64,000 nucleotides of DNA from Oscillospiraceae bacterium (GTDB lineage: Bacteria; Bacillota; Clostridia; Oscillospirales; Oscillospiraceae). Below, one piece after another: positions 30,466 to 39,031 of the stretch. Both the position numbers and the translations under genes were made by a program. Numbering within the stretch: position 1 is the first letter of the stretch; every line of letters starts with the position of its first letter. The stretch spans positions 27,538 through 91,537 of the forward strand of contig JAFRIV010000024.1 in NCBI GenBank assembly GCA_017432615.1, given 5' to 3'. The notes beneath the pieces are model-generated. The model saw only the letters and a list, made by a program, of their open reading frames with translations, searched no databases and had not been told where the DNA came from.

Positions 30466-30586
30466 GCGTCGGGCGCATTTTGGCTGACACACAGTACCTT
30501 TAGGTACTGTGCAACTCTGTCTCTGTATCTTACTCTTACTCTGTATCTTACTCTTAATCTGTATCTGTATCTTACTCTTTATCTTG
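30466..30586 (+). repeat. Hairpin-microsatellite element A
   Basis: A conserved left part (30466-30489, GCGTCGGGCGCATTTTGGCT...) leads into a perfect hairpin with 10-base arms CACAGTACCT/AGGTACTGTG (30490-30511). Three bases later there are twelve head-to-tail hexamers of the form [CA]TCT[GT][TA] (30515-30586). The left part and hairpin recur at 34550-34596, but there they are followed by different repeat units. A 70-codon open frame across it only translates the repeat (LYLTL...) and is not considered a gene. Confidence 0.85.
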
Positions 30587-30714
30587 GTTACAAATTAACA
30601 CAACACAGGGTAAAAATTACCACTCTCCCCTCTGCAGGCGAGTTCCCTGCGTGACACACCTTGTCCTCTTCTGTGTGGTCTGGAAGGGCAATTTGAAGCA
30701 ATGGTTTAAGATTG

Positions 30715-30822
30715 TGTGCCGGTCGGTGCCGGTCTATTCCTAAACTTTCCTCGCGCGCGAGAAAAAGAAAAAAAATATTGTCTATAGAAAAGTTTTGTTT
30801 TTGACCGGCATCGACCGGCACA
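30715..30822. repeat. 108-bp inverted repeat with internally repeated arms
   Basis: Arms 30715-30734 and 30803-30822 match over 19 of 20 bases. Each arm is itself two copies of TGCCGGTC. The 68-base interior contains the palindrome TCGCGCGCGA and an A-rich tract. There is no protein in it. It may be a miniature mobile element, or encode a structured RNA; no target-site duplication is obvious. Confidence 0.7.
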
Positions 30823-31012
30823 TCATTCAAAATGCTGAGTCAAAAACCAATACAAAAAGCAGGTGTGAAACCATCACCGGCCGGAGTACGGATGAAGAGC
30901 CGAAGAAGGTGATTTTGTCTGCTCCTTTTAGGCGCGTCAGAATGCGCTGTACGGCGTTTTGGGCTTTTACCATGTATTTCATGTCGAAGGGCTCTATGCG
31001 CTGAGAGTGCCG

Positions 31013-31038
31013 TTAAAATGCGTCTGAGAGCATTTTAA
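31013..31038. repeat. Inverted repeat TTAAAATGC
   Basis: Arms TTAAAATGC (31013-31021) and GCATTTTAA (31030-31038) with an 8-base loop; no T-tract. It lies just before the nested palindrome. Confidence 0.55.
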
Positions 31039-31051
31039 GCGAAGAGGTCTG

Positions 31052-31091
31052 CAATATATAGTGTTTCAAGCCGCTTGAATGCTATATATTG
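31052..31091. repeat. Nested palindrome
   Basis: Outer arms CAATATATAG and CTATATATTG (10 bases, perfect) enclose an inner perfect repeat TTCAAGC-C-GCTTGAA. It lies between the ABC operon terminator and the 108-bp inverted repeat. It could be a cruciform, an operator or part of a decayed element. Confidence 0.65.
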
Positions 31092-31115
31092 TGTTTTCTG
31101 CTGCTTGAAGAATTA

Positions 31116-31155
31116 TTAAAAAAGGTGCCGGGAACTATCCCTGACACCTTTTCGT
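31116..31155 (-). terminator. Terminator of the sugar ABC operon
   Basis: On the minus strand GGTGTCAGGG and CCCGGCACC pair, followed by TTTTTTAATAATTC, 46 bases after the last permease stop. Confidence 0.85.
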
Positions 31156-31200
31156 TTTAATTTGAGAAACAGATACCACTGAGCCAATCCTGAGACCGTC

Positions 31201-32037
31201 TCAACCTTTGACGGAACCGGCAGTCATGCCTTTTACCAGTGACTTTTGAGCGATGAAGATAAACAGCGCAGTCGGAATCGTGGAAAGTGTGATAGCAGCT
31301 GCCATATTTCCCCATTCCACAGCATAACTGGTAATGAAGAAAGATGTCCCGACCGTTGCTGTGATCGAATTTTTGAATGACAGGATCCCGCTGAAAAGAT
31401 ACTCATTCCAGCTGGTGATAAATCCCAAAATAGCAGTGGAGCCGATTCCGGGAAGCAGCACCGGAATTAATACACGAGTCAGGATCTGAATCGTATTGGC
31501 CCCGTCAATCGAAGCAGCCTCCTCTATTTCCTTCGGCAGATCCTGAATATAGCCGATGAACAGCAGAAGTGACGTTGGTGTGATAAAAAGAGTATGCATA
31601 AAGATGATCGCTATTTTTGTGTCCAGCAGCTTGAATCTGTTGAAGATCAGAAAAACGGGTATCGCGAAAGCCAGGGCAGGAGCCAGACGCAGCAGCATGG
31701 TTGACCCAAGGATCACATCCCCAACGCCGTGATAGCGTACAATGGAATATGCCGCCGGAATGGTTAAAACAATAGCGATAGCTGAAGAAATCACCGCAAT
31801 GATAAAGGAGTTCCACAGATAAAGGCGAAAGTCAAAGCTGCCCTTCCCAAGTACGTTGCGAAAATTATCGAGGGTCGGTTTGAATATCCACTTTGGAGGA
31901 GTGGAAGAGATCGTAAACGGACTTTTGAAAGCAGTCAGGACGTTGGTAATCAAACCGATATCCAGAACAATAACGATAAGAATGACAGCAATCACAGTAA
32001 AGATCGTGCTAAGACGTTTTTTCTGTTTTCTGCTCAT
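31201..32037 (-). CDS. Carbohydrate ABC transporter permease (MalG-type)
   Basis: A 278-residue protein with six membrane helices. The EAA loop reads EEAASIDGANTIQILTRVLIP near 180, the contact site for the ATPase. The first helix is followed by a periplasm-facing segment with FKPTLDNFRNVLG, as in MalG-family inner-membrane subunits. It is the last gene of the operon. No ATPase gene is linked, so it probably uses a shared ATPase encoded elsewhere, as is common for sugar importers in Firmicutes. Confidence 0.92.
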   Translation of the reverse strand: MSRKQKKRLSTIFTVIAVILIVIVLDIGLITNVLTAFKSPFTISSTPPKWIFKPTLDNFRNVLGKGSFDFRLYLWNSFIIAVISSAIAIVLTIPAAYSIVRYHGVGDVILGSTMLLRLAPALAFAIPVFLIFNRFKLLDTKIAIIFMHTLFITPTSLLLFIGYIQDLPKEIEEAASIDGANTIQILTRVLIPVLLPGIGSTAILGFITSWNEYLFSGILSFKNSITATVGTSFFITSYAVEWGNMAAAITLSTIPTALFIFIAQKSLVKGMTAGSVKG

Positions 32038-32038
32038 C

Positions 32039-32899
32039 TTATTTATCTCCTTTTGTCGTTCGCCTTACCAGATAGAGAGAAGGAACCAGCAGAATCAGTG
32101 CTAGTGCAAAGGATGCAGCACAGGCCATACCATAATCCGAACGCTGGAAAGCCCTGCGGTAAATGAAAATAGAGACAGATTGTGTAAATGTTCCGGGGCC
32201 GCCTGCAGTCATGGCAAAGATCAGTTCAAATATCAGGAAAGACTGCAATAATTTTTCAAGAAAAGTGATGCCGAAAATAGCGGAAATCGTCGGGATCGTG
32301 ACATGGATCAGCTTTTGAAAAGCATTGGCACCGTCCATTGTCGCCGCCTCCAGCAGTTCCTGCGGAACACCCTGCATGGCAGAATACATATTAATGAACA
32401 CAAACGGCATACGGTTGATTGTATCTGCACCGATAATCGTTGGATTCACCCAAGCCATTCCCAACAAAGCTGTGGTCCCGGTCAGGCCTGAAAGCAGATA
32501 TGCAATCGGTCCAACAGATTCGTTGAAGAGCAGGCGGAACATAGTGCCCATCAGGAAAGGTGCAACAACCATCGGCATCAGGATCAACGTTGTTGCCAGT
32601 CCCTTCCCTGGAAAATCGCGCTGAAAAAGCCAGGAGATCAAAATACCGAGGACCATCTGGATAAAGGTACAGATGATTGCAAACTTCAGGCTCCATAATA
32701 AAGCCTGCCCAAATTCGGAATTACTGAAGAGTTTGATATAATTTTGCAGCCCGATAAAAGTCGGATTTTCAATATTATTGATCCTGGCATTGAACAAACT
32801 CAGCCGAAGCCCATACAGAATCGGATAAAGTGCAAATGCCACCAGCCAAATCGTCAGAGGCAGGAGAAGCAATAAACTGATTATTTTTTTCTTTTTCAT
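32039..32899 (-). CDS. Sugar ABC transporter permease (MalF/UgpA-type)
   Basis: A 286-residue protein with six membrane helices and the EAA loop LLEAATMDGANAFQKLIHVTIP near 190. The N-terminus LPLTIWLVAFALYPILYGLRLSLF and the following NARINNIENPTFIGLQNY are typical of the UgpA/MalF group. It is one base from the second permease gene and pairs with it to form the channel. Confidence 0.92.
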   Translation of the reverse strand: MKKKKIISLLLLLPLTIWLVAFALYPILYGLRLSLFNARINNIENPTFIGLQNYIKLFSNSEFGQALLWSLKFAIICTFIQMVLGILISWLFQRDFPGKGLATTLILMPMVVAPFLMGTMFRLLFNESVGPIAYLLSGLTGTTALLGMAWVNPTIIGADTINRMPFVFINMYSAMQGVPQELLEAATMDGANAFQKLIHVTIPTISAIFGITFLEKLLQSFLIFELIFAMTAGGPGTFTQSVSIFIYRRAFQRSDYGMACAASFALALILLVPSLYLVRRTTKGDK

Positions 32900-32935
32900 A
32901 GAATCCGCATAACCTCTGGTCTTTAAATGATAAAA

Positions 32936-32960
32936 GGACGGAACTATTTGCTCCGTCCTA
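32936..32960 (-). terminator. Hairpin between the binding-protein and permease genes
   Basis: AGGACGGA and TCCGTCCT (arms of eight) with a nine-base loop, followed on the minus strand by TTTATC. It lies 21 bases after the binding-protein stop and probably lets part of transcription through, giving more binding protein than permease. Confidence 0.7.
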
Positions 32961-32980
32961 TTATTAGATTCACTCAGATC

Positions 32981-34330
32981 TTACTGCCAGTAAGACATTT
33001 CTTCGGTGGCTTCCGCCTGCAGCTGGGCCAGAGCAGTATCGAAATCGATCACACCGTTCCAGGCATCCGCGAGCAGACCGCAAGCCATATCTTCGATAAT
33101 ACCGGCGGTTGGGGGCAGGTTCCTACCACAGTCATTCAGGACGTCAACCATGTAGCCATAGACCGGGAACTGGTCGGACATATCTGCCAGAACCGCCTTG
33201 GACGGAGCAATGCCGCCGGCTTCGGCGTAAAGCTTCGCTGCTTCATCGGTATACAGCCAGGCAGCCCAGCGGGCAGCTTCTTCCTTATGCTCGGAATACT
33301 TGCTGATACCAACACCAAGGGTATGGTTATAAGCGAAGTGGCCTTCCGGACCGGCAGGAGGTGCACAGACCTTGATCTTGCCGTGAACCGGGGATTCTTC
33401 CGCATTAATGGTAGCGTAACCTGCATTCCAATGAACGGTCATGGCACACTGACCGGCAATCATTGCTTCGTTGTCTTCTGCGAACTCACCATTCACAGAG
33501 GATTCCGGTGTCAGACCCTTTTCAAAAGAGGTTTTCCAAACTGCCAGTGCCTGACGGGCGGCATCGTTATCAAAAGCAACATTGCCGTCAGCATCAAACC
33601 AGTCACCCCCGAAGGACCAGTAGCAGTTGGTCCACAGGAAAGCAGTCGGGCCCATAACTTTACCATGGGTGAAGTTGCCGTATTCCGTCGGGGAATCGGG
33701 GTTATAAGCTTTGGTAAAGAAAAAGGATGCTGCAAGATAATCGTCCCAGGTCCAGTCAGCCGGATCTTTCGGTTCCAGTTCCTTCCCCAGCTGTTCAGAA
33801 GCAATCTTCTTGTAGGTTGCCTGCCACTCCTCATTGCTGAGAAGCTCATCGATCAGGTCGCTGCGATAATACAGGAAGTGGTTGGAGAGATCCATCGGCA
33901 CGCCATAGAGAGTTCCGTCCAGCCAGCGGAAACCATCAACCGTGGCGGGGATGCGGCCTTCTGTGTCAGCTCCATAGATGTTGATTTCCGGATTGTCCAG
34001 ATACTGCTGCAGCGGTTCCATATGCATCCAGTACTTTCCAAGCCAGCGGGAAGCCGTGAAGAAGAGATCCACATCAGGAGACTTCGCTGCCATCAGTGCT
34101 TCTTCTTTCAGCAAGATGTTGTCACGGCCAAATAATTCCTGTTCCACATAGAAGCCGGCTTCCTGCGCCTTGTTTTCATTCCAGTAGTTCAGGACGACGT
34201 CCATGGCATCGGACTCCGGGCCCGGCCAATAGACCATACGGACGGTATACAGATCGTCCGCAGCAAAGGCCATCGGGGCGCTGCAGAGCAACACAGCCAC
34301 GATCAAGAGTGCTACCAATACTTTCTTCAT
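32981..34330 (-). CDS. Extracellular sugar-binding protein
   Basis: A 449-residue secreted protein of the SBP family 1 type. The signal peptide ends at APMAFAADD (about 23), with no lipobox cysteine at the cleavage site, which is unusual for a Firmicute. Family features include LTPESSVNGEFAEDNEAMIAGQCAM near 280 and EEAARWAAWLYTDEAAKLYAEAGG near 350. The substrate is presumably an oligosaccharide; it cannot be read from the sequence. It is the first gene of the operon, from a consensus promoter. Confidence 0.92.
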   Translation of the reverse strand: MKKVLVALLIVAVLLCSAPMAFAADDLYTVRMVYWPGPESDAMDVVLNYWNENKAQEAGFYVEQELFGRDNILLKEEALMAAKSPDVDLFFTASRWLGKYWMHMEPLQQYLDNPEINIYGADTEGRIPATVDGFRWLDGTLYGVPMDLSNHFLYYRSDLIDELLSNEEWQATYKKIASEQLGKELEPKDPADWTWDDYLAASFFFTKAYNPDSPTEYGNFTHGKVMGPTAFLWTNCYWSFGGDWFDADGNVAFDNDAARQALAVWKTSFEKGLTPESSVNGEFAEDNEAMIAGQCAMTVHWNAGYATINAEESPVHGKIKVCAPPAGPEGHFAYNHTLGVGISKYSEHKEEAARWAAWLYTDEAAKLYAEAGGIAPSKAVLADMSDQFPVYGYMVDVLNDCGRNLPPTAGIIEDMACGLLADAWNGVIDFDTALAQLQAEATEEMSYWQ

Positions 34331-34371
34331 TTTTGCCTCCTTTTTTTCCCGGTCTGATCATTCGGATCGGG

Positions 34372-34404
34372 TTGGTTCCTTAAAAATTTTTGTTTTTGAA
34401 CCAA
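34372..34404. promoter_or_regulatory. Candidate operator for the sugar ABC operon
   Basis: Inverted repeat TTGGTTC (34372-34378) and GAACCAA (34398-34404), 19 bases apart, covering the expected transcription start. It is placed to act as a repressor site. No regulator gene is adjacent. Confidence 0.45.
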
Positions 34405-34414
34405 TCTGTTTTGG

Positions 34415-34443
34415 ATTATATCATCCATGTTTTTTCGTGTCAA
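34415..34443 (-). promoter_or_regulatory. Consensus promoter of the sugar ABC operon
   Basis: Perfect TTGACA (34438-34443) and TATAAT (34415-34420) with a 17-base spacer on the minus strand. Confidence 0.9.
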
Positions 34444-34549
34444 TCATTTTATCCTGCCGGCATATTTGCTGCCGTTATTCTGTCCCTCCCAATCCAACAG
34501 GATAAAAGATTTTTCCTTCTGCGTGCCCTGCCGGCGGGGTTTGCCTGCG

Positions 34550-34735
34550 GCGTCGGACGCATTTCGTCAGACATACAGTACCTTCAGGTACTGTATAACC
34601 CTCTTTGGTTTGGATTGGTTTGGATTGGATTGGTTTGGTTGGGATTGGATTGGTTTGGTATTACCTTCTCGGGTATTCTCGGGTATTCTCGGGTATTCTC
34701 GGGTATTCTCGGGTATGCTTGGGTATGCCCGGGCA
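34550..34735 (+). repeat. Hairpin-microsatellite element B
   Basis: The same conserved left part as element A (GCGTCGGACGCATTTCGTCA...) and a perfect hairpin with 11-base arms, ATACAGTACCT/AGGTACTGTAT (34573-34596). Eleven pentamers [TA]TTGG follow (34604-34658, one of them altered). After a short spacer come five perfect TTCTCGGGTA decamers (34666-34715) and two diverged copies (to 34735). A long open frame across it only translates the repeats (GLDWFGLDWFG...) and is not considered a gene. Confidence 0.88.
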
Positions 34736-34861
34736 TGCGGCACCGTGATCTTTTCATGCCAAAAGTGCCGTTCCAGCAACTTTGCAGCGAAATATCATGC
34801 AATTACAGGAATGAAGCTGGAGCGAATGCCCCGGATCTTCTTGTGTTCAGCCGGAATGCCA

Positions 34862-35728
34862 TCATTCAGAAGTAAGATGATTCGTGATGGACTGGAAGAA
34901 CTCTTTACTCCACATATCAAGAGACGCCGGATTATGGATAAACGGCAATACATCCTCTTTCGCCTGCGAATAATCCATGCTCTCAAATCGGCTGAAAAGG
35001 ATCTGTTTGATTTCTTCCAATGTCAAATCTTCTCTGGCACCAGCAAATTCTGAATCCATCAGCCTTGCGTTCAAATGCTTCAAATTTACCGGTGTTCCAT
35101 TGGCTAGATAGAACACAAAATCATAAAGGTCCCGGCCTTTGATCCTGCTTTTCCAAGCACGGCAGATTACAGCATGGAGCTTTCCGGCAAAGAGTGATGG
35201 CATATCATACAGGTTGATCTCATAAGGAATCGGGAGTAATCTGAACCGGCGTTCAAACCCGGCATAAGGAGGAGGCGCAGTATCCACTTCAAACTTGACC
35301 TTAATCAGTTCAGAGCCAACGACTGTCCGTGCAAGATTCTCATCCGCATAGCAGAGCAGAATATGCTCCCGGGTGTTCCCTTTCACAAATGCAGACTGCA
35401 CATCGGAATCGTTGGCTTTTACCTTTGCTTCCGCTTTGAAGTGAAACCCATATGCGCCGAGTTCTCTTTCCAGTACCGGCAAATACTTTTCCAGATGAAA
35501 ATCAGAATCCGGAGTTAGCAGGGAAAAATCCAAAGCTTCCGAAAAACGGTCAAGTCCATGAAAGATCCGCAATGCGGTGCCGCCATAAAACGCTGCCATC
35601 TGAAAAAAACCCGCTCGGGAAAGTCCGCACAAGATGATCTCCTGAACGATTTCTTTGATGCTGTTCTTCTTGTCTCCCAGCGTTTCAGACTTACGTTGAG
35701 ACAGCATTTGTTCAATAATGGTATTCAT
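34862..35728 (-). CDS. AbiEii-family nucleotidyltransferase toxin, DxD motif altered
   Basis: A 288-residue protein. The nucleotidyltransferase core has FYGGTALRIFHGLDRFSEALDFSL at about 48-71. In active AbiEii/AbiGii toxins the last part reads SEDLDF; here the first metal-binding aspartate is alanine (GCT at codon 67 or so), which would be expected to weaken or abolish activity. The later lysine-rich motifs LFAGKLHAVICR and KGRDLYDFVFYL are intact. AbiE toxins transfer nucleotides, typically GTP-dependent, and cause phage abortive infection. The gene overlaps the AbiEi-type antitoxin gene by 17 bases. Confidence 0.85.
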   Translation of the reverse strand: MNTIIEQMLSQRKSETLGDKKNSIKEIVQEIILCGLSRAGFFQMAAFYGGTALRIFHGLDRFSEALDFSLLTPDSDFHLEKYLPVLERELGAYGFHFKAEAKVKANDSDVQSAFVKGNTREHILLCYADENLARTVVGSELIKVKFEVDTAPPPYAGFERRFRLLPIPYEINLYDMPSLFAGKLHAVICRAWKSRIKGRDLYDFVFYLANGTPVNLKHLNARLMDSEFAGAREDLTLEEIKQILFSRFESMDYSQAKEDVLPFIHNPASLDMWSKEFFQSITNHLTSE

Positions 35729-36314
35729 GTCGCTTTATCTCCTTGATCATAGATATCAGCAGATGGTGATTTGTTGTCTGATAGAGTCCTGCAAGCTCTG
35801 CCATCTTCTCCATGTCCGCATTATGAAAAGCTGTTTCATCAATTCGCAGATCATCAAACAAAAGTGTTTTTAGCTCCATCCTGTTAGAGCACGGTGAACA
35901 CGTATATAATTGGTCACACACCGCCTTTTCTGCCGATGCAATCACATAGCCGTATCCATTTTCTTCATGGAGTTCGGTTCCGTAAGGGAAAGCGGCAACG
36001 GGTACATCCCGGTATGTGTATACTCCGAACGGCGTCTCATATTGCTTCTTTTTCTTCTTGCCGCAGGTTGCAGATGTATATGTGTATACTGCTTCGGGAA
36101 TCAAATCATGCCATGCCAGTGCAAATTCAAAAGACAGATAGGACGGACCGTAAATAATCCCTGCCAGATAATGGCAAGGAACAGTACAGTCTGTTTCATA
36201 AAGTCCCTTGATGATCGGTATCAGGTTCCCGTTTCTGGCCATCCTTCCGATCTTTGCAGCGGGATTCGCATACGAATTATATTGCTGAAGCAACATAGCT
36301 GTCGAATTAACCAT
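35712..36314 (-). CDS. AbiEi-family antitoxin-like protein
   Basis: About 200 residues from MVNSTAMLLQQYNSY; GGTGGTGAT lies just upstream. The family features are GRMARNGNLIPIIKGLYE at about 23-40 (the end of the winged-helix region), then YLAGIIYGPSYLSFEFALAWHDLIPEA, GVYTYRDVP and ASAEKAVCDQLY. Antitoxins of this type IV system bind the operon promoter and counteract the toxin without direct contact. The N-terminal helix-turn-helix is short compared with streptococcal AbiEi. Confidence 0.8.
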   Translation of the reverse strand: MVNSTAMLLQQYNSYANPAAKIGRMARNGNLIPIIKGLYETDCTVPCHYLAGIIYGPSYLSFEFALAWHDLIPEAVYTYTSATCGKKKKKQYETPFGVYTYRDVPVAAFPYGTELHEENGYGYVIASAEKAVCDQLYTCSPCSNRMELKTLLFDDLRIDETAFHNADMEKMAELAGLYQTTNHHLLISMIKEIKRHEYHY

Positions 36315-36454
36315 ATTATCACCACCAACTGCAATATTACTGCATTTACCGGTGAAAATCAAAAAAAATCCAACGTTATCCTGCTTTTCTTATTCAGCAG
36401 AATAAATGGTTCTTATATCTGAGTGCTCTGCTGAAAGCCTGCCGATGGGAACAA

Positions 36455-36547: not shown

Positions 36548-36590
36548 TTGACAGCTGAGTTGTAAAGTGATATGTTACAACCATCAGCTG
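36548..36590 (+). promoter_or_regulatory. Promoter and nested operator of the Rrf2 gene
   Basis: TTGACA (36548-36553) and TATGTT (36571-36576), 17-base spacer. Overlapping them is an inverted repeat GTTGTAA (36559-36565) and TTACAAC (36575-36581), nested in a larger one, CAGCTGA (36552-36558) and TCAGCTG (36584-36590). The position over the -10 fits autorepression by the Rrf2 protein. Confidence 0.7.
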
Positions 36591-36613
36591 ACAAACTTGT
36601 GCGGAGGCGGAAA

Positions 36614-37093
36614 ATGCAGATCGGAAGCAAATTTACAATCGGGGTTCACATCCTCACGGCTATTGACTACTTCAAGGATAGGGATCGTGTGAACAGTGAA
36701 TTCCTTGCCGGGAGCATCGGGGTAAACCCTGTCATCGTCCGCACAGTCATTTCACAGTTACGGGAAGCCGGTATCGTGCAGACACAGCGCGGCAGCAGCG
36801 GCGCAGAACTCGCAAAGCGGCTTGACGAGATCACGCTTTACGACATCTACAAAGCCGTTGGCAGTGTGGATACGGAGGAAGGCCTCTTCCATTTCCATGA
36901 GCAGCCGAATCCGGACTGCCCCGTGGGGAGAAACATCCATAAGGTTTTGGATCAGCGTCTCATCGATGCGCAGAGAGCTATGGAAGAGAAACTCAGATCC
37001 GCAACGCTTGCCGATATCGCGGAAGACACGAGGCAGGCAGTCAGCAATGAATCGAATACAGAAGCGGAAACTGTGTCTCCGTGTGTCCGGTAG
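36614..37093 (+). CDS. Rrf2 family transcriptional regulator
   Basis: A 159-residue regulator from MQIGSKFTIGVHIL, with GGAGG upstream. The winged helix covers 1-80: GSIGVNPVIVRTVISQL is the recognition region and TQRGSSGAELAKRLDEITL the wing. The three clustered cysteines that bind a [2Fe-2S] cluster in IscR are absent; only CPVG near 107 and one at the C-terminus remain. This resembles the cysteine-poor YwnA-like group. It precedes the macrodomain gene by 24 bases, so it probably controls the ADP-ribose module. Confidence 0.88.
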   Translation: MQIGSKFTIGVHILTAIDYFKDRDRVNSEFLAGSIGVNPVIVRTVISQLREAGIVQTQRGSSGAELAKRLDEITLYDIYKAVGSVDTEEGLFHFHEQPNPDCPVGRNIHKVLDQRLIDAQRAMEEKLRSATLADIAEDTRQAVSNESNTEAETVSPCVR

Positions 37094-37117
37094 TCGCAGC
37101 AGAAAGGAGGCAACAGC

Positions 37118-37924
37118 ATGAATGAGAAAAAAACGCAGGATCAACGGCTGAATTATCTCGTTGAGGAATTCAAAGCAGATTCTGTTCAGTATAAAGATTT
37201 GCAGACGCCAAACGACGACGAGGGTAAACGCCGTATCCTGCGATCCCTTATGAACATCCGAATGCCTCGAAAGATGGATGAGGCTGTTCTTGCCGTGCAG
37301 GACGAGTATCTGCAGGAGCGCATCCGTGAAAACGGAATTGTGGAACCTGCCGACATCCCCGTGATTCGGGATCGAATGTCCGTCTGGCAGGGCGACATCA
37401 CGAGGCTGGCTGTAGACGCCATCGTGAATGCCGCCAACTCGCAAATGCTGGGCTGCTTTGTTCCGATGCACACCTGCATTGACAACTGCATCCATACCTT
37501 TGCGGGCGTGCAGCTTCGAGCGGAATGCAATCGGCAGATGAACGCGCTCCGTATGCGGTATGGCAGGGATTATGAGCAGCCGACGGCCGTACCCATGCTG
37601 ACGGACGCGTATAACCTCCCTGCGAAAAAGGTGGTTCATATCGTTGGGCCTATTGTCGAAAATGGATTGACAAAGGAACTGGAGGAACAGCTGGCAGCCT
37701 GTTACCGCAACACGCTGGATATGTGTCTGGAAAACGGTCTCAAAACAGTCGCTTTCTGCTGTATTTCTACAGGCGTCTTTCATTTTCCGAACAGGAGGGC
37801 GGCCCAGATCGCGGTGCAGACAGTATCAGAGTGGCTGTTGAACCATGACGGTCGGATGGATCGGGTAATCTTCAATGTTTTTAAAGATGAGGATAAAGAA
37901 TATTATGAACGGCTTTTACAATAA
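37118..37924 (+). CDS. Zinc-dependent macrodomain protein-ADP-ribose hydrolase
   Basis: A 268-residue protein. An N-terminal helical extension (1-85) precedes the macrodomain (about 88-268). Ligand-binding motifs are WQGDITRLAVDAIVNAANS and the substrate loop CCISTGVFHFPNRRAAQIA. The insertion GCFVPMHTCIDNCIHTFAGVQLR holds the Cys and His residues that bind zinc in the SirTM-linked class. These hydrolases remove mono-ADP-ribose placed by the partner sirtuin (known for the family). It is co-directional with the sirtuin gene 189 bases downstream. Confidence 0.93.
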   Translation: MNEKKTQDQRLNYLVEEFKADSVQYKDLQTPNDDEGKRRILRSLMNIRMPRKMDEAVLAVQDEYLQERIRENGIVEPADIPVIRDRMSVWQGDITRLAVDAIVNAANSQMLGCFVPMHTCIDNCIHTFAGVQLRAECNRQMNALRMRYGRDYEQPTAVPMLTDAYNLPAKKVVHIVGPIVENGLTKELEEQLAACYRNTLDMCLENGLKTVAFCCISTGVFHFPNRRAAQIAVQTVSEWLLNHDGRMDRVIFNVFKDEDKEYYERLLQ

Positions 37925-38114
37925 CAGACCGGACGGACATCAGGAGATCAATCAAAAAGGGCTCTCTGCTGTCCGTGCCCTGCGATCCGGCCTGTTCTGC
38001 AAAGCCGGGCGCCGGAGGAAGGATTTTCGGAGACTGAAATCAGAGCTTGAAAAAGCGTATCTCACTCATTTTTCTCATAACCCTGCGAGGATGTCATTCA
38101 GGAGGTGTGCGTGA
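37905..38114 (+). CDS. Possible small basic protein bridging macro and sirtuin genes
   Basis: A 69-codon frame. It begins 20 bases before the macrodomain stop and its TGA overlaps the sirtuin ATG (TGATG), so it would couple translation across the gap. GAGG lies 12 bases before its ATG, which is far. The product is rich in Arg and Lys (AGRRRKDFRRLKSELEK) with no known domain. The gapless fit is suggestive, but chance cannot be excluded. Confidence 0.3.
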   Translation: MNGFYNNRPDGHQEINQKGLSAVRALRSGLFCKAGRRRKDFRRLKSELEKAYLTHFSHNPARMSFRRCA

Positions 38115-39031
38115 TGTTCGGACGCAGAATACCAAGGTCTCAGGATACCCCTGACGGGATCAATCTCCTGAAAAAAACTCTGGATGAAGCGGAATCCGTC
38201 ATTATCGGAGCCGGTGCGGGACTCTCCACTTCCGCCGGTTTTATTTATACAGGAGAGCGTCTCGAGAAGTACTTCTCAGATTTCATTGGCAGGTATCATT
38301 TCGAGGACATGTATTCCGGCGGCTTTTATGCGATGCAGTGGCCTGCTGAAGAGCTTTGGGCTTACTGGAGCCGTTATATTTATATCAATCGCTTTATGGA
38401 TCCGCCAAAACCGGTCTACGAGGATCTTTTCGAGCTCGTAAAGGATAAAGACTACTTTGTCCTGACAACCAATGTGGACCATTGTTTCCAGAAGGCCGGG
38501 TTCGACAGGCACAGGTTATTTTATACGCAGGGAGATTACGGCCTCTGGCAGTGCAGCAGGCCCTGTCATGATAAGACTTACGACAATGAAGAGACCGTGC
38601 GAAAGATGGTTCTTGCCCAGGGCTTTACCATTGCGGAAGACGGCACACTGACTGTTCCGGAAGGATCGGCCCTCAAGATGAAGGTTCCCTCAGAGCTTCT
38701 CCCGCGCTGTCCGGTCTGTGGTGAGCCGATGAGCATGAACCTTCGGGCGGATGATACGTTTGTGGAGGACGAGGGCTGGCACAAAGCATCTCAGCGCTAT
38801 TCTGATTTTCTCCGCAGGCATAAGAACAGAAAGGTTCTCTTCCTGGAGGCAGCCGTGGGATGGAATACGCCCGGCATCATCAAATTTGCTTTCTGGCAGA
38901 TGACAGACGAATGGCCTGATGCCACCTATGCCTGCCTGAACTACAATGAGGCTTATGTCCCGGACGAGATCAAAGCAAAGTCGATCTGCATTAACGGCGA
39001 CATAGGAGACATCCTGAACAGGATGAAATAA
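38114..39031 (+). CDS. SirTM-class sirtuin, probable protein ADP-ribosyltransferase
   Basis: A 305-residue sirtuin starting at MFGRRIP, with GGAGG seven bases upstream. The NAD-binding motif is GAGAGLSTSAG (32-42) and TTNVD at 118-122. The catalytic histidine found in deacylases (xxHG) is replaced by glutamine in TQGDYG (138-143), the mark of class M sirtuins, which ADP-ribosylate proteins rather than deacylate them. Zinc cysteines lie in QCSRPC and RCPVCGEP. Known SirTM operons also encode a macrodomain (present), a GcvH-like carrier and an LplA2 ligase (both absent here), so the target protein is an open question. Confidence 0.9.
   Translation: MFGRRIPRSQDTPDGINLLKKTLDEAESVIIGAGAGLSTSAGFIYTGERLEKYFSDFIGRYHFEDMYSGGFYAMQWPAEELWAYWSRYIYINRFMDPPKPVYEDLFELVKDKDYFVLTTNVDHCFQKAGFDRHRLFYTQGDYGLWQCSRPCHDKTYDNEETVRKMVLAQGFTIAEDGTLTVPEGSALKMKVPSELLPRCPVCGEPMSMNLRADDTFVEDEGWHKASQRYSDFLRRHKNRKVLFLEAAVGWNTPGIIKFAFWQMTDEWPDATYACLNYNEAYVPDEIKAKSICINGDIGDILNRMK

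Follow-up and report, generated by a model that had tools for sequence, protein, structure and literature searches.

Two hairpin-and-repeat elements of an Oscillospiraceae genome as probable decayed fragments of a phage origin within a replisome-organiser gene

Results and discussion

In this study, we analyzed two short elements, A (30466-30586) and B (34550-34735), in a stretch of 64,000 nucleotides (nt) from an Oscillospiraceae bacterium (GCA_017432615.1, contig JAFRIV010000024.1, positions 27,538 to 91,537), referred to as the window. Both elements share a leader and a hairpin and run into different tandem repeats. Our results suggest, at a probability of about 0.65, that A and B represent decayed pieces of a replication origin that lies within the initiator (replisome-organiser) gene of a phage. 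What deserves attention is less the two window elements, which are decayed and ordinary, than the conserved structure from which they derive: a double hairpin that is found in intact replisome-organiser genes and in many phages.

A double hairpin shared by A and B

A sequence-only reading of the window had described a common left part of 24 bases and a hairpin, continued in A by hexamers and in B by pentamers and then decamers. This description was confirmed, as both elements are present at the positions given above and are identical at 21/26 of the bases preceding the hairpin-2 arm. In A, 11/12 hexamers (30515-30586) match [CA]TCT[GT][TA]; in B, ten of the eleven pentamers (34604-34658) match [TA]TTGG, followed by seven decamers (34666-34735), five being exactly TTCTCGGGTA and two altered. 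Both arrays were called by Tandem Repeats Finder, and the comparison of A with B bears out that leader and hairpin are conserved while the repeat units are not.

The earlier reading contained neither the fold of the leader nor a third copy. Based on folding, the 24-base leader of A is a hairpin of its own, and likewise that of B; the unit shared by A and B is therefore a double hairpin of 43 nt, consisting of hairpin 1 (8 base pairs (bp), 5-nt loop), 2 nt, and hairpin 2 (8-10 bp, 4-nt loop). Taking both hairpins together, Watson-Crick pairs account for 13/16 in A and 15/16 in B. Perfect stems of at least 9 bp with loops of 2-6 nt occur at seven places in the window, A and B among them, and perfect stems of at least 8 bp with a CT...G or C...AG tetraloop occur only at A and B. 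The third copy, C, was obtained by a pattern search of the window's genome; it is perfect and located near the end of contig C30. The hairpin-2 arms are identical in all three copies, in contrast to other parts of the unit, and the 69 GC-rich bases between C and the contig end hold no tandem array.

Most diverged copies lie inside replisome-organiser genes

A pattern allowing up to three mismatches gave no match in 59 relatives because the hairpin arms differ there. A covariance model built from A, B and C (R1), in turn, detected diverged copies in additional species of this genus. Among 20 R1 hits inspected with their flanks, ten were of one kind, namely the three model copies and seven further ones (G020, G015, two in G079, G088, G024 and G096). 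Ten weak R1 hits were not of this kind on inspection (G073, G085, G021, G101, G083, G084, G012, G062:C105, G030 and G000:C14:63990).

A TCT-rich tract resembling that of A directly follows the hairpins in 7/7 relatives (irregular in G088), and beyond it lie short inverted or direct repeats, e.g. GGGGTAAAATTTACCCC in G024. In five of the seven, the element is located inside an open frame of 292-310 residues on the opposite strand. All five of these intact genes, when scanned, showed the N-terminal domain of phage replisome organisers (PF09681), and their PHROG families are replisome organizer and DnaD-like helicase loader. Using a profile of the five proteins, two further long frames with the element inside were identified in the genus (G062, G116). 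A later, wider covariance model (R2), representing the 5-nt-loop form only, detected 12 elements in 9/102 genus genomes at E <= 1e-5, including the window's own; this count leaves out eleven weaker rows, including three in which A, B and C are matched on the opposite strand. Seven of the 12 elements fall in long frames and five are remnants (A, B, C, G079:C4 and G024:C50).

In gene order, the linker-coding stretch of the intact genes comprises one or more palindromic iteron-like sites, a purine-rich hexamer tract, hairpin 2, hairpin 1 and the C-terminal domain. The tract is made of codon-phased hexamers such as GAGAAA, GATACA and GAGATA. A strict loop scan, which misses other loop letters and imperfect stems (the intact genus genes L205-L207 are negative in it), detected nothing in the C-domain relatives L212 and L218, in the N-domain relatives L213, L214, L217, L219, L223 and L224, or in L215 and L220-L222.

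A, B and C as remnants of the gene

The protein of G020 matches A at 30651-30367 with residues 128-216 (tblastn, E = 5e-6), convincingly only as far as the hairpins. The A tract contains five in-phase TAA stops, its hairpin sits in another frame following a frameshift, and coding is lost in A. C matches residues 173-213 of the same protein at 71% identity (tblastn). In B, hairpins, pentamer tract and decamers are retained, together with an AKLL-like stretch from the end of the N-domain. The PF09681 domain is absent from all three copies, which are therefore remnants and not genes. From these sequence comparisons, we conclude that A, B and C very probably descend from the linker part of a phage replisome-organiser gene. 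The individual features are as follows.

30467..30651, minus strand: element A, very probably the decayed linker part, with origin-like sequence, of a phage replisome-organiser gene; tblastn with the G020 protein and alignment
30468..30488, minus strand: hairpin 1 of A, equal to the leader; folding
30491..30510, minus strand: hairpin 2 of A, gene-strand loop CTAAAG; folding and loop scan
30515..30586, minus strand: hexamer tract of A, in which the reading phase of the intact genes gives five TAA stops; unit count and reading of the phase
30608..30621, no strand: iteron-like inverted repeat of A, GGGTAAAAATTACC; by reading, compare GGGGTAAAATTTACCCC of G024
34550..34800 (right end approximate), minus strand: element B, very probably a decayed fragment of the same kind of gene; hairpin part matches G020 residues 170-187, and alignment
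34552..34572, minus strand: hairpin 1 of B; folding
34575..34594, minus strand: hairpin 2 of B, gene-strand loop CTGAAG, with a stem reaching 34573-34596; folding and loop scan
34604..34658, minus strand: pentamer tract of B; Tandem Repeats Finder and unit count
34666..34735, minus strand: decamers of B, TACCCGAGAA-like on the gene strand; Tandem Repeats Finder, alignment and unit count
near 34771-34789, minus strand: AKLL-like stretch of B; reading of the alignment

The hairpin-1 loop letters common to A and B are missing in the other rows of the alignment (A5), so that these two elements probably come from one lineage. Since the relatives carry hairpins and tract as parts of a gene, leader and repeats were inherited together, and the repeats altered later, probably by slippage. 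The sequence-only reading had instead proposed that the repeats were made or exchanged at the hairpin end; this does not agree with the A-kind, TCT-rich tract of the seven relatives or with the codon-phased linker of the intact genes. Its suggestion of a variable spacer fits the tract well. Repeat units of the same kind do recur elsewhere in the case of A (7/7 relatives), but the pentamers and decamers of B are exceptional, and two patterns of them have no viral match. The other refuting result named in that reading, a leader near no microsatellite in related genomes, did not occur. Nothing pointed to an associated polymerase, which had also been considered, and ordinary slippage in an already repetitive tract would suffice for the differences. 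The five in-phase stops suggest that the stop-bearing units of A probably spread once the coding constraint was gone, and units of 5 and 10 bases, which keep no single codon phase, would fit a change of the B tract after decay. The B decamers resemble the junction of iteron and tract, TACCCGAGAGAAAG, of a G079 gene.

As a separate observation, C is located within an organiser frame that is truncated shortly behind RGKML (L084 9312-10001, at the end of G000:C30), and a DUF1492/sigma-like regulator with phage PHROG matches adjoins this frame. The tail after C resembles part of a putative sugar-kinase gene, and this end of the contig is possibly a chimeric assembly join.

The hairpins are constrained as nucleic acid

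To the viral contigs we applied a protein-alignment search, and the best 80 of 98 loci, of which 72 are distinct, were scored for a perfect stem with a tetraloop within the 105 nt preceding the conserved tryptophan of the C-terminal domain. A perfect stem of at least 7 bp is present in 53/72 distinct loci. The arms vary between phages, and the loop reads CTRAMG in 47/54 loci with stems of at least 6 bp (CTAACG 17, CTAAAG 17, CTGACG 12, CTGAAG 1). When codons were shuffled synonymously in 57 clusters, p <= 0.05 was reached for hairpin 2 in 37 and for hairpin 1 in 24, compared to about three expected. Covariation across 19 distinct aligned double hairpins yielded 54 double-change cells versus 14.8 in shuffled alignments and at most 13 with partners slid; the viral rows of this set had been selected for having both hairpins, which makes the codon-shuffle test the fairer of the two. 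These results demonstrate that the double hairpin is constrained as nucleic acid in many of these phages. A search with one hairpin pattern and two repeat patterns of B gave no match in the viral contigs.

Constraint of this kind cannot separate RNA from DNA, and both hairpins lie within a transcribed gene. With the same descent, they could thus work in the mRNA of the initiator gene, in translation, processing or stability, and not in a DNA origin. We regard this as the less probable course, though one with a real chance, as the hairpins adjoin palindromes and a purine-rich tract, arranged as in known in-gene origins, an argument from layout only.

A candidate origin within the initiator gene

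Palindromes, tract and hairpins occur together in the middle of an initiator gene, as in lambda and SPP1, and for this reason we read the region, by analogy, as a putative lambda-O-like origin. The N-terminal domain would bind the palindromes, the tract would then open, and the hairpins, once single-stranded, may aid helicase loading or priming. After decay in the chromosome, the tract would be free of coding constraint and change by slippage, which would give the same leader with different repeats. Several of the palindromes, the putative binding sites, have an ACAATGT centre by eye, and the tract shows a mean purine fraction of 0.71 across 55 clusters. We consider it probable that the hairpins form part of the origin.

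A function of the hairpins in priming can be suggested only tentatively. Viral loops start with CTA in 36/54 cases, with CTG in 13, CTT in 2 and others in 3 (stems of at least 6 bp). As far as the accessible text of the sources goes, DnaG of several Firmicutes initiates at CTA (PMC5429622), the initiation site of C. difficile DnaG is CCC (PMC5204125, alongside the Firmicutes CTA), and hairpins place primase on single-stranded DNA at G4ori (PMC6783573). The genus elements have CTNNNG loops, and among the nine in alignment A5 only A has CTA, which counts against priming. Because the genus loops vary, we rejected the notion that the loop stands for CTA priming alone.

Lambda and SPP1 are established examples of an origin located within the initiator gene. 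In the accessible parts of the lambda papers (PMC7466680, PMC3349717, PMC4488673), the origin lies in the middle of the initiator gene, O, as it would here, and comprises repeats bound by the initiator and a tract that melts readily; these parts describe iterons of 18-19 bp and an AT-rich region and no conserved double hairpin, whereas here short palindromes are combined with a PF09681-type initiator. SPP1 oriL is located within initiator gene 38 (PMC6316719), and the portion of that source available to us does not describe a double hairpin either; the likeness considered here is one of layout. The origin of phage G4, G4ori, shares the hairpins, for which a priming role here would be conjecture, but G4 is, by the same partial account, a single-stranded DNA phage served by the E. 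coli primase at CTG and thus differs from the phages considered here. Literature on replisome organisers, origins and stem-loops of initiator genes, covered by titles and the beginnings of abstracts with most subscription papers outside, contained no description of the double hairpin, which apparently is undescribed in the replisome-organiser linker. A double hairpin that covaries while its loop stays nearly constant would provide a searchable origin mark in uncultured phages and would offer binding and priming assays a direct target. Some intergenic sequences appearing as a microsatellite beside a hairpin might also be explained as scraps of phage origins.

Several observations weigh against the origin reading or its breadth. 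The protein match of B is short and weak on its own, and its assignment relies on the hairpins and the alignment. The stem is missing in 19/72 distinct viral loci, including a cluster of seven near-identical ones, and the palindromes reach p <= 0.05 in a modest 10/55 clusters. An annotated phage collection of 50,697 records contains ten that match the C-domain. Only three of these ten show a perfect 7-8 bp stem whose loop is CTAAAG or CTGACG, namely MT835520 and the mutually similar MT838892 and Bacteroides phage BS-TP2. In the other 7/10, which include three R. gnavus phages and one Roseburia phage, no perfect stem of at least 7 bp with a CT...G loop was detected. R2 matched no other genome at E <= 1e-4 in a class sample of 391 genomes (16 candidates scored per genome), and across 394 genomes of the order only weak matches in five other genomes were obtained; both searches scored few candidates per genome.

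Decoys or a mobile repeat as improbable alternatives

Solitary fragments selected as origin decoys would titrate the initiator of an incoming phage or misdirect it. In a wider form, chromosomes of the genus would keep bare origin fragments as decoys for the initiator or for helicase loading, the double hairpin being the signal in both origin and decoy, and such decoys would draw off the initiator or helicase-loading machinery that incoming phages bring or use. We consider both forms quite improbable. A, B, G079:C4 and G024:C50 indeed retain exactly this part of the gene with ordinary genes alongside, and the hairpin-2 arms of A, B and C have stayed identical despite differences elsewhere. According to the accessible text of two papers, phage lambda is arrested by ectopic copies of its origin (PMC4488673), and phage Sfi21 has an origin-like element of 302 bp that confers copy-number-dependent resistance (PMC6356513). 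The latter system, PER, is comparable as a bare phage origin in a host, but its effect depends on copy number, whereas the chromosomal fragments found here are single and partly decayed (hairpin 2 of G024 is broken). Moreover, a search via the hairpin favours fragments that keep it, and an N-domain remnant without hairpin is also known (G064). The pattern of the four fragments could be due to chance, hairpin-based detection or decoy retention.

Compared with descent from a phage origin, a small mobile repeat of the repetitive extragenic palindromic (REP) type or another type, unrelated to phage genes and with microsatellites arising at its end, is very unlikely. It is largely refuted by the position within phage genes, and diverged copies share one gene position and the kind of tract, with few copies per genome. 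The genome does have a REP-associated tyrosine transposase gene (NCBIfam score 74.3, cut-off 80), but the repeats around it read differently by eye (L085 flanks). Judged by eye, this single gene (L085 1129-1866, G000:C46) is flanked on either side by repeats resembling GTTGTCAGGAGAACCGTCCC. A comparison with Rfam returned three hits only, at chance level and under the gathering scores. The exact hairpin-2 pattern occurs in eight stretches of the genome contig collection, and the three inspected (L006, L007, L010) look unrelated.

Neighbourhood of the fragments

Eight window open reading frames (ORFs) near A and B were compared with PHROGs. Half of them remained without a match, and the matches of the other four were weak or to auxiliary families (zinc ribbon, Rrf2-like, Sir2-like, DUF559/HNH endonuclease). 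Pfam names in this region are those of ordinary genes plus an AbiEii toxin. Near G079:C4 and G024:C50, the eight scanned proteins comprise a D-Ala-D-Ala carboxypeptidase, a glutamyl/glutaminyl-tRNA synthetase, regulators and transporter parts. Among these eight plus eight ORFs, no recognised phage replication, structural or integrase gene lies beside the four fragments.

Directly after A, an intergenic repeat of 195 bp (window 30668-30862) is 87% identical to G000:C48:8749-8941; it has GTGCCGGTC-type inverted ends and a CTCGCGCGCGAG core, and a pattern of this core had no match in the viral contig collection. Between A and B lies a sugar ABC transporter operon (31201-34330), which matches an 86.5% identical stretch in G096, an 83% identical one in G069 and a 299-base piece in G024:C29. 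Its surroundings differ in G096 and G069, so the operon has probably moved horizontally. Since it stands in other contexts in these genomes, we ruled out that it travels with A and B. The loop scan of the operon stretches revealed no such hairpin in G096 and one terminator-like stem of 14 bp in G069.

Further on in the window, an AbiEii-type toxin gene (PF08843) and its upstream partner frame without Pfam match lie at 34862-36362, and DNA homologous to this region is present in G075 and G102. Genes for an Rrf2 regulator, a Macro-domain protein and a Sir2-like protein follow consecutively at 36572-39031. Elsewhere in the genome, Tandem Repeats Finder called long tandem repeats of 27-42 bases, divisible by three, at L079 1361-2823 (G000:C48), which are perhaps coding.

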